NCBI RefSeq assembly: GCF_000746845.1
Contig: NZ_KN050846.1
Coordinates: 2,000,963 to 2,064,962, forward strand
Direction: 5' to 3'
Origin: Altibacter lentus
Lineage (GTDB): Bacteria; Bacteroidota; Bacteroidia; Flavobacteriales; Flavobacteriaceae
DNA: 64,000 bases
Below, one piece after another: positions 47,485-52,780 of this stretch. Each line of letters begins with the position of its first letter. Positions within the stretch are counted from its first letter, which is position 1. Under the pieces are notes generated by a model. That model worked only from the letters and a program-made list of their open reading frames with translations, was not told the DNA's origin and made no database searches. A program made the position numbers and the translations under genes.

Positions 47485-47504
47485 GGTTCTTGCTTAAATT
47501 TTGG

Positions 47505-47512
47505 CAAAGTTA
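47505..47512 (-). promoter_or_regulatory. -7 promoter element of trpS
   Basis: Reads TAACTTTG on the - strand (TAnnTTTG), 20 bases before the trpS ATG. A possible TTG partner (47540-47538) is 25 bases away, slightly too far. Confidence 0.5.
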
Positions 47513-47545
47513 CTTTTTTTCGCCTATTCTCCTGTTCCAAATCAC

Positions 47546-47553
47546 TATTTTTG
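47546..47553 (+). promoter_or_regulatory. -7 promoter element of the PlsC-like gene
   Basis: TATTTTTG ends 7 bases before the ATG at 47561, so the mRNA would be leaderless or nearly so. No TTG stands at -33. Confidence 0.5.
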
Positions 47554-47560
47554 ACCTTCT

Positions 47561-48310
47561 ATGATCGTACTCCGACACATCTTTAACTTTTTCTATCGCA
47601 TTTGGTTTTATGTGTTGGTCACAGTTCCTATCATTGTCCTTTTTCCTGTATTACTAGTTAGTATTTTAAGGGAGTCGTGGTACCCTTTTTTCTTCAAATT
47701 GGCTCGTCTGTGGGCGATTTTGATTTTGTTCGGGATGGGGTTTTACCCTAAAGTACGTCGCGAGGAGCGTTACGAGCGAGGAAAGAGCTATGTATTTGTC
47801 TCTAACCACACCTCTATGACAGATATTATGCTAATGCTGTATGTAACTAAGAACCCCTTTGTATTTGTCGGGAAGATGGAATTGGCCAAAATCCCATTAT
47901 TCGGATTCTTCTATAAGCGTACGTGTATCTTGGTGAACAGGAACAGTCCTAAAAGCAGAAAAGAAGTGTTTGAGCAGGCGCAACACAAACTCAATCAAGG
48001 GTTGGGGGTTTGTATATTCCCGGAAGGCGGTGTACCCGACGATTCTCAAGACCTGCTACTTGATACATTTAAGGATGGGGCGTTTCGACTGGCAATAGAG
48101 CATCATATCGCAATAGCTCCAATGACCTTTCATGATAACCAAAAACGATTTTCCTATCGCTTTACCTCTCTTAAAGCAGGCCCGGGACGGATGCGCGTGA
48201 AGGTACATAAGACCATACCCACAGGGATCTTGGAGATGGAGGACCGTCGGATGCTGCGAGAGCAAACCCGAAACATTATTCTAAAGGAGCTGCAAAAACC
48301 AACGGTATAA
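47561..48310 (+). CDS. 1-acyl-sn-glycerol-3-phosphate acyltransferase (PlsC family)
   Basis: 249 residues. Transfers an acyl group to lysophosphatidic acid to form phosphatidic acid at the inner membrane. N-terminal hydrophobic segment (about 3-35), then SNHTSMTDIMLML (H-x4-D catalytic motif, about 85-97), FVGKMELAKIPLFGFFYKRT (about 104-123) and CIFPEGGVPDD (about 153-163, the FPEG motif). One gene flanked by a bidirectional terminator downstream. Divergent from trpS across a 76-base region with two -7 boxes. Other glycerolipid or ornithine-lipid acyltransferase roles remain possible. Confidence 0.9.
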   Translation: MIVLRHIFNFFYRIWFYVLVTVPIIVLFPVLLVSILRESWYPFFFKLARLWAILILFGMGFYPKVRREERYERGKSYVFVSNHTSMTDIMLMLYVTKNPFVFVGKMELAKIPLFGFFYKRTCILVNRNSPKSRKEVFEQAQHKLNQGLGVCIFPEGGVPDDSQDLLLDTFKDGAFRLAIEHHIAIAPMTFHDNQKRFSYRFTSLKAGPGRMRVKVHKTIPTGILEMEDRRMLREQTRNIILKELQKPTV

Positions 48311-48342
48311 AAAAACCGTTCTATGGCGAAGAACGGTTTTTT
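48311..48342 (+). terminator. Bidirectional terminator
   Basis: AAAAACCGTTCT (48311-48322) and AGAACGGTTTTTT (48330-48342) form a stem of at least 11 bp around ATGGCGA. A-run and T-run on the two sides let it terminate both the PlsC-like gene and the convergent beta-barrel gene. Confidence 0.9.
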
Positions 48343-48391
48343 CTGTCATCATTGTTTGGTATTTCCAAACCTAACCAACTAAAAAACTAAC

Positions 48392-49915
48392 CTAAAACTT
48401 AAAACTCAATCCGCTGTAAACACCTACATAGTAGGGTTTAAAATCTACAGACGAATCTGTATACGGGTTGAGCTGGTATTTAAACATAGGCTCAATATTA
48501 AACTTTAGCTTTTTACTTATTTTATAATCGAAGCCAATCCCCACATTCGTGGTAAAACTTACAGAAGATAGATTGTTGGCTTCCCCCAAAGTATCTCTAA
48601 AATCACCGGCTTGCACCGATACGTCATTATTTCCTAAAAACAGCGTGCTCATCCCGCCAATTACATTCACACCTAATTTGGTGTCTAACAAGGCATATTT
48701 CAGTTCTAAGGGAACCTCATAATAGGTAATGTTCTGTCTTAGCTCTACCTCGCCCATAGTCGATTTAGGTGTAACGTTGTCCAAGGGGTTTCCTCCTTCG
48801 GAGGTCATTCCGAGGGTGCCTTTATCCACGGCAATAAGGACTGTTTGCCGCCCGCCGTAGTCTATGGATCTCAGAGCTGAAGAAACAGGACCTGTTCCCA
48901 GTTCCAGACCACTGGTTGCATAACTTAGGTCTACATTGCTTATACCGGAGCGAACACTCAAACGATCGCTAAGGGCATAACTTACTTGCACACCATAACT
49001 TAGATTCACATCGCCGCTTTGCGCATTATCTGAAAAAGAGGGGTCGATGGAAGAGCCTTGTCCAATACTACTGTAATAAACAGGTCCCACATTGGGAGCA
49101 ACGTCCCAGCGATCGGTTGCTTCTTTCTTTGTGTCAACGACCGCTTCTTCGCTGTCCTTTTCATTGATGGCATCCAGCAACGAGCGTTTTTTGATCTCTT
49201 CGGTTTTTGTTTCTTCGGAAGTGTTTTTATCACCGGCTTCTTTGGTATTCTTTTCTGTAACTCCTATCGCAGTCGCATCGTCGATCTTCAGCTCTTTTTT
49301 AATGAGCGGGTCATTCTTTTCGGCTATTTTTTGAGTTGTCTTTTCTTTTTCTGAAACAGTTGCGATCGCTTCTTTTTCTTTTTTGGCTGCGGTTACAGTT
49401 TCGGTATCTTGCCCGATCCGGGGGTCTGTTATAGCGTTCTTCTTTTTATTCTTTTGTATTTCTGAAGCAGTTGTCGTTGCCACCGCTTCCCGCGCAGTAA
49501 TTGAAGCAGGGTCTTTTGTCGCATTCACCGCTTTTTTCTTTTCTTTTTCTGAAGTTTCATTATTGTTTTCAGGAAGTGAAGATGCTTCGGTTGCGATCCC
49601 TTCTTTATACGGGGCATCCTTTAAGATGGGAGTTTTCTTGGTTTCAACATCGGTTGATTCCGGCACCGAGGTCTCTTCCGAAGAAATACTTGTAGTAGGA
49701 GCAAAGGGGTCGAACACAGCGTTACCTATGGTCAACAGCAAGGCAAGCAAAGCTGCCACCCCGGCGGCTTTCCACCAAATAGGAATGACTTTGCGGTCCT
49801 CTTTCTCCTCTTGTAATTGCGCCTGGATATTTTCCCAAACGCGTGGGGAAGGGGTTGCTTCAAAATTTTTAAAGCGGTCTTTAAAAAGCTCGTCTATGTG
49901 CTTTTTGTCTTTCAT
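48392..49915 (-). CDS. Anti-sigma-like N-terminus, membrane helix, long linker and outer-membrane beta-barrel
   Basis: 507 residues, partner of the ECF sigma factor gene 5 bases upstream. Residues 1-47 are cytoplasmic-looking, with the FKNFEATPSPRVWENIQAQL motif found in Bacteroidota anti-sigma-like proteins. Residues about 49-67 form one membrane helix (KAAGVAALLALLLTIGNAVF). Residues about 68-270 are a low-complexity Lys/Glu/Thr/Ala linker. Residues about 271-507 look like an eight-stranded-type beta-barrel (alternating pattern, VSYALSDRLSVRSGISNVDL, FDYKISKKLKFNIEPMFKYQ, final SGLSFKF ending in Phe), matching PF13568-like porin domains. The combination suggests a protein reaching from cytoplasm to outer membrane. 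No N-terminal signal peptide precedes the helix. Confidence 0.8.
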   Translation of the reverse strand: MKDKKHIDELFKDRFKNFEATPSPRVWENIQAQLQEEKEDRKVIPIWWKAAGVAALLALLLTIGNAVFDPFAPTTSISSEETSVPESTDVETKKTPILKDAPYKEGIATEASSLPENNNETSEKEKKKAVNATKDPASITAREAVATTTASEIQKNKKKNAITDPRIGQDTETVTAAKKEKEAIATVSEKEKTTQKIAEKNDPLIKKELKIDDATAIGVTEKNTKEAGDKNTSEETKTEEIKKRSLLDAINEKDSEEAVVDTKKEATDRWDVAPNVGPVYYSSIGQGSSIDPSFSDNAQSGDVNLSYGVQVSYALSDRLSVRSGISNVDLSYATSGLELGTGPVSSALRSIDYGGRQTVLIAVDKGTLGMTSEGGNPLDNVTPKSTMGEVELRQNITYYEVPLELKYALLDTKLGVNVIGGMSTLFLGNNDVSVQAGDFRDTLGEANNLSSVSFTTNVGIGFDYKISKKLKFNIEPMFKYQLNPYTDSSVDFKPYYVGVYSGLSFKF

Positions 49916-49920
49916 TCAAT

Positions 49921-50457
49921 TTATTCTGCTTTTGTTACCGTGTTATAGGTTTCAATCTTTGTCTTTAATATCATTCGTGCTCTTGCCAGGTTTGATTTAG
50001 ACGTTCCGTCTGAGATTCCTAACATATCTGCGATCTCTTTATGAGAATAATCATCCAGAACATACATGGTGAAAACCAGCCGATACCTATCCGGTAATTC
50101 TTGAATGATCTTCAGCAAAAAGTTCAAAGGAACACCGGCATCTTCTATTTCTTCCTCTGCGGCTTCCAGTTGCTCCTCGTTGGGTATGTCAAAAACACGT
50201 TGTTTGCGGTATTTTTGAAGCACTGTATTCACGGTGATCCGTTTCATCCAACCTTCAAAAGAACCTTTGTCCTTAAACTGCTCAATCTTTTTAAAAATGG
50301 TAAGAAACGCATCCTGTAGGCTGTCTTCAGCTTCAGCATGGTTGGGCGAATACTTCAGGCAAATAGAGAACAACGTGTTCGAATAGCGTTTATAAAGTTC
50401 TCCTTGTGCCTTTGCATCCTGCTTCTTACATTGTAGTATGAGCTCGTCTAAAGTCAA
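49921..50457 (-). CDS. ECF-type sigma-70 factor
   Basis: 178 residues. Region 2: QGELYKRYSNTLFSICLKYS and AEDSLQDAFLTIFKKIEQFK with GSFEGWMKRITVNTVLQKYR (about 16-80), which recognise the -10-type element. Region 4: LPDRYRLVFTMYVLDDYSHKEIADMLGI and SKSNLARARMILK (about 118-166), the helix-turn-helix for the -35-type element. No anti-sigma gene of the FecR type is adjacent; the beta-barrel protein downstream is the likely regulator because of the 5-base spacing. Target promoters are unknown. Confidence 0.94.
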   Translation of the reverse strand: MTLDELILQCKKQDAKAQGELYKRYSNTLFSICLKYSPNHAEAEDSLQDAFLTIFKKIEQFKDKGSFEGWMKRITVNTVLQKYRKQRVFDIPNEEQLEAAEEEIEDAGVPLNFLLKIIQELPDRYRLVFTMYVLDDYSHKEIADMLGISDGTSKSNLARARMILKTKIETYNTVTKAE

Positions 50458-50574
50458 ATGCAGTACCTAAAATTATTAGTAATCACACAGTATCGCACGG
50501 GCAACCATAATAATTGAGGGTTCTACAGTACGTAGATGCCGAATGGTGTAAAGGGTTGCGTGCCAACCTAAAAT

Positions 50575-51582
50575 TTATGCGTTCAAAGCTTTGATGGCTT
50601 CTTTGATTTTTTGTTCCAGTTCTTCCATAAGATCCGGATTGTCCAGCAACAGAGCTTTTACGGCATCGCGACCTTGTCCCAGCTTGGTCTCATCATAACT
50701 AAACCAGGAACCACTTTTTTTAACGATCTCGAAATCAACCCCAAGATCGATCACCTCTCCAACTTTAGAGATCCCTTCTCCGTACATAATGTCGAATTCA
50801 GCTGTTTTAAAGGGAGGCGCGACCTTGTTCTTTACAACCTTTACTCGGGTCTTGTTTCCTTTTACGTTACTGTCTGTGTCTTTTATTTGAGTAGATCGTC
50901 GAATGTCCAAGCGTACCGATGCATAGAATTTCAAGGCATTTCCACCGGTAGTGGTTTCGGGATTTCCAAACATTACCCCGATCTTTTCGCGCAATTGGTT
51001 GATGAAGATAACGGTACAATGGGTCTTGCTTATAGAGCCTGTCAATTTCCGAAGAGCCTGAGACATTAAACGTGCATGCAGTCCCATCTTGCTGTCTCCC
51101 ATTTCTCCTTCGATCTCACTTTTTGGTGTTAATGCAGCTACCGAGTCGATCACAATAATGTCAATGGCGCCACTTCTTATAAGGTTGTCGGTGATCTCCA
51201 GCGCCTGTTCTCCATTGTCGGGCTGAGAGATGATGAGGTTCTCGATATCCACGCCCAGCTTCTCGGCATAATAACGATCAAAGGCATGTTCTGCATCAAT
51301 AAATGCGGCAATGCCTCCTTTTTTTTGTGCTTCCGCGATCGCGTGCAGGGTCAATGTGGTCTTACCGGAAGATTCCGGTCCGTAGATCTCGATCACCCGT
51401 CCACGCGGATACCCTCCTACGCCTAAGGCTACGTCAAGGCCCAAAGAGCCGGTTGGGATCACTTCCACCTCTTGTACGGCCGAATCACCCATTTTCATGA
51501 CTGTGCCTTTTCCGTAGGTCTTATCTAACTTATCTAAAGTAAGCTTTAGTGCTTTTAATTTTGCGTCTTTTTCGGTGCTCAT
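50575..51582 (-). CDS. recA: Recombinase RecA
   Basis: 335 residues. Walker A is [15 protein letters not shown] (about 68-82), FIDAEHAFD follows, and [20 protein letters not shown] is the Walker B/MAW region. [27 protein letters not shown] is the L2/DNA-binding loop area. Standard length. The gene forms ssDNA filaments for recombination and SOS induction. A -7 box (TATTTTTG) 5 bases before its ATG implies a leaderless mRNA. A 117-base gap without a clear hairpin separates it from the sigma gene downstream. Confidence 0.98.
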
Positions 51583-51587
51583 GAATT

Positions 51588-51595
51588 CAAAAATA
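51588..51595 (-). promoter_or_regulatory. -7 promoter element directly before recA
   Basis: Reads TATTTTTG on the - strand and ends 5 bases before the ATG at 51582. No TTG is found 17-23 bases upstream. Confidence 0.5.
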
Positions 51596-51673
51596 TTTAG
51601 TGAGAAATCTAATCAGCTAAGGTAACATTTCTTTAGGTCTGCCCCAAAAGGAAAAAACCGCTTGCAGGGTTTT

Positions 51674-51703
51674 TTGTCAACAACACAGAAAGTGGTATTT
51701 TTG
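51674..51703 (+). promoter_or_regulatory. Bacteroidota-type promoter of trhO
   Basis: TTG at 51674-51676, a 19-base spacer and TATTTTTG at 51696-51703 match the consensus. The start codon is at 51749, giving a leader of about 40 bases. Confidence 0.75.
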
Positions 51704-51748
51704 CATGATTTTTAAATCTAATTCTTTTACACTCAAAATTAGTATAGC

Positions 51749-52780
51749 ATGCAACTGTACAATACCTTAAGTGCAAAAGAGCGGGAAGCCTTATTGGAAG
51801 AGGCCGGCGAAGACCGACTCACCCTCTCTTTTTATCAATATGCCAAAATTGGCAATCCACACCTTTTTAGAAACCATTTGTTTGTAGCTTGGGACGCTAT
51901 GGAGGTCCTGGGACGCATTTATGTGGCCCATGAAGGGATCAATGCGCAACTTTCGGTGCCGGCAAAAAGGTTCAATGAATTTAAGGCATTCCTGGACGGT
52001 ATTTATTTTCTGAAAGACGTCCGACTCAACATTGCCATTGAGCACGACCTGAAATCGTTTTTGAAACTGAAAGTAAAAGTGCGTCATAAGATCGTGGCCG
52101 ATGGCCTCAATGACGATACGTTTGATGTTCGAAACAAAGGCGTGCATGTCGATGCCGAAACCTTCAACCGGCTTATCGAAGATCCCGATACCGTGCTCGT
52201 CGATATGCGAAACCACTACGAAAGTGAGATCGGGCATTTTAAGAATGCGGTTACCCCCGATGTGGATACATTTAGAGATTCTCTGGATATTATCGAAGCC
52301 GACCTAAAAGACCATAAGGAAGATAAGAAACTGGTGATGTACTGTACCGGAGGAATACGTTGCGAAAAGGCAAGTGCCTACTACAAACACAAAGGGTTCA
52401 AACAGGTCTATCAGCTGGAAGGTGGTATTATTGAGTATGCCAGGCAGGTGCAAAACAAGGGCCTGGAGAATAAATTCATTGGAAAGAACTTCGTATTCGA
52501 CCACCGCAGGGGTGAGCGTATCACAGAAGATGTAATTGCACAATGCCATCAATGCGGTGCAGCCTGCGACACACACACCAACTGTGCGAACGAGGCTTGT
52601 CATTTGCTCTTTATTCAATGCGAATCATGTGCTTCAGAAATGGAAAATTGCTGTTCTGCAGATTGTCAAGAAATCATCCAATTGCCCTATGAAGAGCAAA
52701 AACGACTTCGTCAAGGCATTCCAAACAGCAATAAGATCTTTAAAAAGGGTCGTTCAGAAAAGCTAAAGTTCAAAAAATAG
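51749..52780 (+). CDS. trhO: tRNA uridine hydroxylase TrhO (rhodanese family, YceA)
   Basis: 343 residues. N-terminal acylphosphatase-like domain with YVAHEGINAQLSVP (about 52-65), then the rhodanese domain: DTVLVDMRNHYESEIGHFKN (about 149-168) and MYCTGGIRCEKAS with the active Cys (about 197-209). A C-terminal cysteine-rich part (CHQCGAACDTHTNCANEAC, later CESCASEMENCC) forms a zinc-binding-type region found in many members. TrhO uses O2 to form 5-hydroxyuridine at tRNA position 34. It has its own consensus promoter at 51674-51703. Confidence 0.95.
   Translation: MQLYNTLSAKEREALLEEAGEDRLTLSFYQYAKIGNPHLFRNHLFVAWDAMEVLGRIYVAHEGINAQLSVPAKRFNEFKAFLDGIYFLKDVRLNIAIEHDLKSFLKLKVKVRHKIVADGLNDDTFDVRNKGVHVDAETFNRLIEDPDTVLVDMRNHYESEIGHFKNAVTPDVDTFRDSLDIIEADLKDHKEDKKLVMYCTGGIRCEKASAYYKHKGFKQVYQLEGGIIEYARQVQNKGLENKFIGKNFVFDHRRGERITEDVIAQCHQCGAACDTHTNCANEACHLLFIQCESCASEMENCCSADCQEIIQLPYEEQKRLRQGIPNSNKIFKKGRSEKLKFKK

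Follow-up and report, generated by a model that had tools for sequence, protein, structure and literature searches.

Our analyses indicate that two adjoining genes of the window (the whole 64,000-nt stretch of Altibacter lentus DNA analysed here) very probably form an autoregulated outer-membrane surveillance system of the Dma (dual membrane-spanning anti-sigma) family, in which an ECF sigma factor is paired with a 507-residue protein whose single chain would reach from the cytoplasm to the outer membrane. The case is built on the computed architecture of the protein, its conservation across the Flavobacteriaceae, a modelled and covarying contact with the sigma factor, and a promoter motif that accompanies Dma from genome to genome. 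An envelope-spanning sigma regulator had been proposed by an earlier, sequence-only reading of the locus; this proposal is supported as largely right and coincides with the published Dma model. The open reading frames lie exactly where that reading had placed them, at 48392-49915 and 49921-50457 on the minus strand, with one unbroken 507-residue frame following the sigma gene after a spacer of 5 nt. The features are:

50575-51582, minus strand: recA, a conserved upstream neighbour, given as context and outside the system proper
50533-50559, minus strand: ECF-type promoter GCAACCCTTTACACCATTCGGCATCTA, an exact match occurring once in the window, presumed autoregulatory
49921-50457, minus strand: Das-like ECF sigma factor gene, 178 aa, TTG start (ORF call; Pfam Sigma70_r2 and r4_2)
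48392-49915, minus strand: dma-type gene, 507 aa, ATG start (ORF, Pfam, AlphaFold; orthologues in 134 of 151 family genomes)
49793-49915, minus strand: two-helix anti-sigma domain, aa 1-41 (helices 7-14 and 24-36), with a predicted position between sigma regions 2 and 4 (AlphaFold, joint model, covariation)
49715-49780, minus strand: single inner-membrane helix, aa 46-67 (AlphaFold helix, hydropathy; conservation 0.67)
49196-49711, minus strand: disordered periplasmic tether, rich in K, T, E and A, aa 69-240 (pLDDT < 50; conservation 0.27)
49148-49183, minus strand: short conserved helix SLLDAINE ahead of the barrel, aa 245-256 (AlphaFold helix 246-254; conservation 0.55 vs 0.27 in the linker)
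48395-49108, minus strand: OmpA/NspA/OmpW-like 8-stranded outer-membrane barrel with C-terminal Phe, aa 270-507 (PF13568, AlphaFold strands, Foldseek)
47561-48310, plus strand: plsC-type acyltransferase, a conserved convergent neighbour, given as context

The sigma factor is recognised by Pfam in both of its conserved regions (region 2, E 3e-17; region 4, E 2e-17), and in NCBIfam only the general ECF superfamily exceeds the cut-off. It is separated from recA, on the same minus strand, by 117 nt. An Rfam search of 47500-51900 gave no RNA elements. In the gap between plsC and dma, at 48314-48338, an inverted repeat AACCGTTCT/AGAACGGTT is bordered by runs of A and T and looks like a two-way terminator; it was spotted by eye, and the scan returned only a weaker, overlapping stem.

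The partner protein has the four parts of a Dma protein in the expected order. The membrane helix, earlier put at residues 49-67, agrees with both the hydropathy maximum (50-68) and the AlphaFold helix (46-67), and the basic residues on its N-terminal side point to an N-in, C-out orientation. The linker had been drawn from residue 68 to 270: its disorder stands, as pLDDT is below 50 across most of residues 69-263 in an AlphaFold model built with 61 orthologues, whereas its end has to be moved, the conserved helix at 246-254 lying inside it and the low-complexity part stopping nearer 240. From membrane to barrel the relatives measure 120-328 residues, with a median of 201. The C-terminal barrel ending in Phe (the last residues are ...YSGLSFKF) is confirmed: Pfam OMP_b-brl_2 (PF13568) matches residues 269-474 with E 1.3e-7, above its cut-off, and the block 270-506 is modelled with a pLDDT of about 80-97. 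By our own grouping of the DSSP elements it has eight strands, at 270-284, 303-314, 319-343, 390-411, 414-436, 439-465, 470-482 and 493-506. Foldseek matches the barrel to OmpA, NspA and OmpW with target-normalised TM scores of about 0.57-0.68 (OmpA, 0.65-0.68), and the search for solved-structure relatives by sequence gave nothing meaningful. With an N-terminal anti-sigma domain assigned by computation, a single transmembrane helix, a disordered tether, a C-terminal barrel and an adjacent ECF sigma gene, the protein is, by domain order, a member of the known Dma family.

The turns at one end of the barrel are short and the loops at the opposite end long; as the tether must meet it from the periplasmic side, the long loops should point outwards. 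This orientation bears on what the barrel is for. It may merely anchor the chain, with the signal being read in the periplasm, for instance by the tether or by the helix at 245-256; the position of that conserved helix next to the barrel is in keeping with this, as is another anti-sigma gene, the third in this genome (L002), that has the N-terminus and the membrane helix without a barrel. We consider an anchoring role alone unlikely, since the outer loops L1, L3 and L4 are about as conserved (0.64-0.71) as the strands (0.66-0.80), which is unusual for outer loops and suggests that they are functional. The anti-sigma part and the membrane helix, at 0.67 each, are conserved to a similar degree, and low values are confined to the tether (0.27) and the one variable loop, L2 (0.36).

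The arrangement is near-universal within the family as sampled. A protein search found a match in 134 of the 151 Flavobacteriaceae genomes sampled, among them relatives in Ulvibacter, Aequorivita, Aquimarina and Winogradskyella besides Altibacter itself, and 15 of the 17 genomes without a match are no larger than 2.7 Mb. The four-part layout recurs in the same order in the 134 genomes, with the transmembrane segment at residues 40-62 in relatives, and this recurrence means that the architecture is not a product of chance. The two-gene pair, which the sequence-only reading had suggested looking for across the Flavobacteriia, was examined in 210 distinct orthologous pairs with a median Dma length of 511 residues; the barrel, whose absence from close homologues would have spoken against the proposal, is retained in the 134 genomes and the 210 pairs, 207 of the proteins ending in Phe and the other three in Leu. 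Most fetched loci retain the gene order recA-sigma-Dma-plsC. Farther away in the phylum, three loci (L289, L290 and L305) are hit by the N-terminal profile as well as by that of the barrel. As the PF13568 barrel family is very common, the protein might be taken for a plain outer-membrane barrel whose signal anchor stays uncleaved and whose gene follows a sigma gene by accident, with no regulatory link to it; yet the sigma gene stands immediately upstream of Dma in 210 of 210 pairs, with spacers mostly of 60 nt or less, the N-terminus shares homology with proteins that partner other ECF sigma factors and have no barrel (hhalign probability 98.8), and contact with the sigma factor is both modelled and seen in covariation, which makes such a coincidence highly improbable.

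That contact, proposed earlier from the position of the two genes, is predicted by a confident joint model and by covariation. For the model, relatives whose sigma stop and Dma start share one frame were taken and the stop was read as Gln, the query being the orthologous locus L135 (alignment A3), whose Dma is 51% identical to that of the window; this read-through is a computing device and claims no real fusion protein, and natural sigma-Dma fusions of the Dma3 kind were absent among the fetched loci. The joint model reaches a pTM of 0.76, and Dma residues 2-35 rise to a pLDDT of 93-96 in the presence of the sigma factor, compared with 64-76 in the window's Dma modelled without it. The model has a short strand at sigma 104-106 and another at Dma 4-6, and these may pair with each other. 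The modelled sigma factor resembles sigma factors held by their inhibitors, with target-normalised TM scores of 0.61-0.68 for SigW/RsiW, 0.59-0.60 for RpoE/NepR, 0.56 for SigK/RskA and 0.54 for CnrH/CnrY, and it is less like the sigma chains of RNA polymerase holoenzymes (0.30-0.43); as the chains of sigmaE/RseA and AlgU/MucA score in between, at 0.43-0.47, the fold comparison is a graded one.

Covariation was measured as mean-field couplings over the 210 sigma-Dma pairs. E44-S23 ranks first and R161-D8 second among all residue pairs, within or between the proteins, with z of 13.1 and 11.1, while the controls go up to 8.3 for sigma against barrel and up to 10.8 for within-clade shuffles. Weaker pairs, with z of 6.5-7.7, do not beat the sigma-versus-barrel control, and most pairs below the first two were dropped; phylogeny therefore accounts for a part of the signal. 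In a set of 85 independent, divergent pairs, R161-D8, mostly of opposite charges, ranks 30 of 8319 and E44-S23 just 202 of 8319, and the leaders include Q48-V26, Q48-I30 and L52-I30, which put Dma helix 2 on the same region 2 helix of the sigma factor as E44. Taken together, the joint model and the covariation would have Dma helix 1 facing sigma region 4 and helix 2 facing sigma region 2.

The sigma gene is set apart by its start codon. With starts placed by alignment, TTG or GTG opens the sigma gene in 201 of 209 orthologues, the window's own TTG being at 50457, and such codons are found in only 4 of 210 Dma genes, 10 of 105 plsC genes and no recA or trpS gene. The long conservation of a weak start suggests a sigma factor kept less abundant than its anti-sigma partner.

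A predicted promoter motif would tie the sigma factor to its own operon and to candidate targets elsewhere. Upstream of the sigma genes the strict form ACGCAACC-N16-ATCTA is present in 144 of 210 loci (none in shuffles) and the looser GCAAC-N17-ATCT in 191 of 210, the family consensus reading ACGCAACCtTTT...G(C/T)ATCTA. It begins about 90-120 nt ahead of the sigma gene, or about 500 nt where a putative lipoprotein gene intervenes. Genome-wide, the extended form CGCAACC-N16-ATCTA gives 93 sites, spread over 28 of 29 Dma-bearing genomes (the reversed pattern gives none), and a single site in the 17 genomes that lack a Dma match. Two of these 17 (G020 and G030) show under a sensitive profile only a weak N-terminal match, which belongs to other anti-sigma proteins; a genome with a divergent Dma (G112) has four sites, one of them about 1.9 kb upstream of its own Dma gene and beside the sigma-Dma pair. 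From its position and its co-occurrence with Dma, we infer that the Dma-partner sigma factor reads the motif. In one genome (G110; L393 and L404) an insertion-sequence-like repeat carries the exact motif in 13 copies, which make up 13 of the 93 sites and where its presence is possibly coincidental. In the genome of the window just three exact matches are found, and allowing one mismatch gave no excess over the control, so exact sites alone were used.

Directly behind the motif stands the sigma gene or a lipoprotein-sigma operon and, in five genomes with our own among them, a gene for a DegT/DnrJ aminotransferase. In two genomes, again including our own, the first gene is that of a SIS+CBS KdsD-type protein of the Kdo pathway, and in five it is a UPF0176/rhodanese gene that runs divergently from recA; small putative lipoproteins of several unrelated kinds also take this place. 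In several genera (as in L391, L398 and L402) a motif on the far side of recA is aimed at the UPF0176/rhodanese gene, and thus two copies of the motif flank recA. In about 137 loci, covering most Flavobacteriaceae sampled, a conserved gene for a putative lipoprotein of about 137 residues and of no Pfam family lies between recA and sigma and heads the sigma-Dma operon (L380, L389 and L397 among others). It is absent from this position in the window, and a genome-wide single-sequence search, run with no positive control, gave no match to it. Since Dma1 of Bacteroides thetaiotaomicron acts via NigD1, a NigD identity was tried for this lipoprotein and rejected, three members having no NigD Pfam match; PF12667 is absent from our genome.

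Two further sigma/anti-sigma pairs in the same genome share the Dma N-terminal domain and show how the parts can be distributed. In one (L003, 933-3404; G000:C1, about 2761.0-2764.6 kb), an ECF sigma factor is followed by a 260-aa anti-sigma protein that stops after the tether and by a separately encoded protein of 352 aa, whose start resembles a signal peptide and whose end resembles a barrel. This three-gene layout was found at 23 loci of four families, L003 included. Homology between the split anti-sigma proteins and Dma is found by hhalign (probability 98.8 over 76 residues), and PF13568 matches 14 of the 23 split barrels at E <= 0.1; direct profile comparison of the split barrels with the Dma barrel gave a probability of 6.7, and we make no claim of homology between them. 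In the other pair (L002, 1252-2416) the anti-sigma protein has the same N-terminal domain and a membrane helix; the product of the gene that follows matches Lcl_C weakly and starts like a lipoprotein.

The split homologues imply that physical continuity is dispensable in principle, and the linker of the window protein, being long, disordered and poorly conserved, should be readily cut. The chain might thus be severed in the periplasm soon after export, leaving an anti-sigma stump in the inner membrane that signals by contact with a separate barrel, as in classical cell-surface signalling. Nevertheless, tether and barrel are fused in 210 of 210 recA-linked pairs, and the Dma protein has been treated as a continuous chain (Pardue 2026, PMC13088901), and we regard such cleavage as quite improbable. 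A broader picture, which we put forward tentatively and hold a little short of an even chance, is that the Bacteroidota deploy a single family of anti-sigma N-termini in two or more trans-envelope arrangements, fused and split with a separate signal-peptide barrel, and that in the Flavobacteriaceae the fused, recA-linked form governs a core regulon for outer-membrane surveillance from ACGCAACC-N16-ATCTA, made up largely of small lipoproteins and with the sigma factor kept scarce through its weak start.

With the continuous chain as the preferred reading, the system could work as follows. The single N-in, C-out helix would anchor the protein in the inner membrane, the cytoplasmic N-terminus would clamp the co-encoded sigma factor between its regions 2 and 4, keeping it away from RNA polymerase, and the tether of about 200 residues would span the periplasm to the barrel. 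The barrel might detect a change in the outer membrane, either through a ligand that meets the conserved surface loops or through failed barrel assembly, and the tether would relay the change, probably by becoming exposed to proteolysis, the step we prefer from its likeness to what is generally known of other ECF systems. The freed sigma factor would then transcribe its own operon together with genes for small lipoproteins and for the glycan/Kdo functions. Outer-membrane localisation and sigma inhibition are expected for the window protein by analogy with its Dma relatives.

Little is known of how Bacteroidota convey the condition of their outer membrane to transcription, and the Dma-type studies in the literature searched are confined to Bacteroides and Phocaeicola of the gut. 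With a near-universal, syntenic copy in the Flavobacteriaceae and a predicted promoter and targets, the question becomes testable in other organisms: the promoter motif is a ready reporter, the split relatives are a natural experiment on the need for a continuous chain between the membranes, and the conserved outer loops mark a possible place of signal binding.

The Dma1/Das1 and Dma2/Das2 systems of B. thetaiotaomicron, reportedly the subject of a 2024 PNAS paper by Pardue, resemble ours in the anti-sigma domain, the transmembrane helix, the disordered tether, the C-terminal barrel and the adjacent ECF sigma gene, and occur in Bacteroidota only; loss of a Dma protein is reported to free the sigma factor and to alter vesiculation. 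The window type differs in belonging to the Flavobacteriaceae, in being linked to recA and near-universal, and in the short putative lipoprotein gene ahead of sigma, not NigD by Pfam, at about 137 of its loci. The predicted conformation of the sigma factor resembles those in SigW/RsiW, RpoE/NepR, CnrH/CnrY and SigK/RskA; to our knowledge, those anti-sigma factors have no outer-membrane barrel. In the published Bacteroides model an outer-membrane barrel, a tether crossing the periplasm and an N-terminus on the sigma factor dispense with any FecR/TonB relay, and for Dma1 and Dma2 the sigma factor is released on anti-sigma loss or signalling (PMC13088901). The Phocaeicola vulgatus pair M0N98_03760/03761, from another order of the phylum, likewise includes an anti-sigma factor that, by prediction, crosses the periplasm and carries an outer-membrane barrel at its C-terminus; its sigma gene is induced 33-fold by an envelope-acting toxin, the downstream response including longer O-antigen and a link to NigD, and EcfO of B. 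fragilis is cited there as a similar system (Evans 2022, PMC9308784). The layout is already published (2022-2024). Within the literature searched, what seems new is the promoter of the Flavobacteriaceae with its list of targets, the bias in sigma start codons and the split arrangement, their priority being uncertain. FecIR-type signalling follows the same route from outer membrane to ECF sigma factor, yet it needs a separate TonB-dependent receptor and a FecR protein; neither domain was found at the locus by ORF, Pfam or NCBIfam searches, as the sequence-only reading had anticipated, and the barrel has 8 strands, not 22, so that signalling of the FecR/TonB type is scarcely credible here and the direct, Dma-type connection remains the closest parallel.
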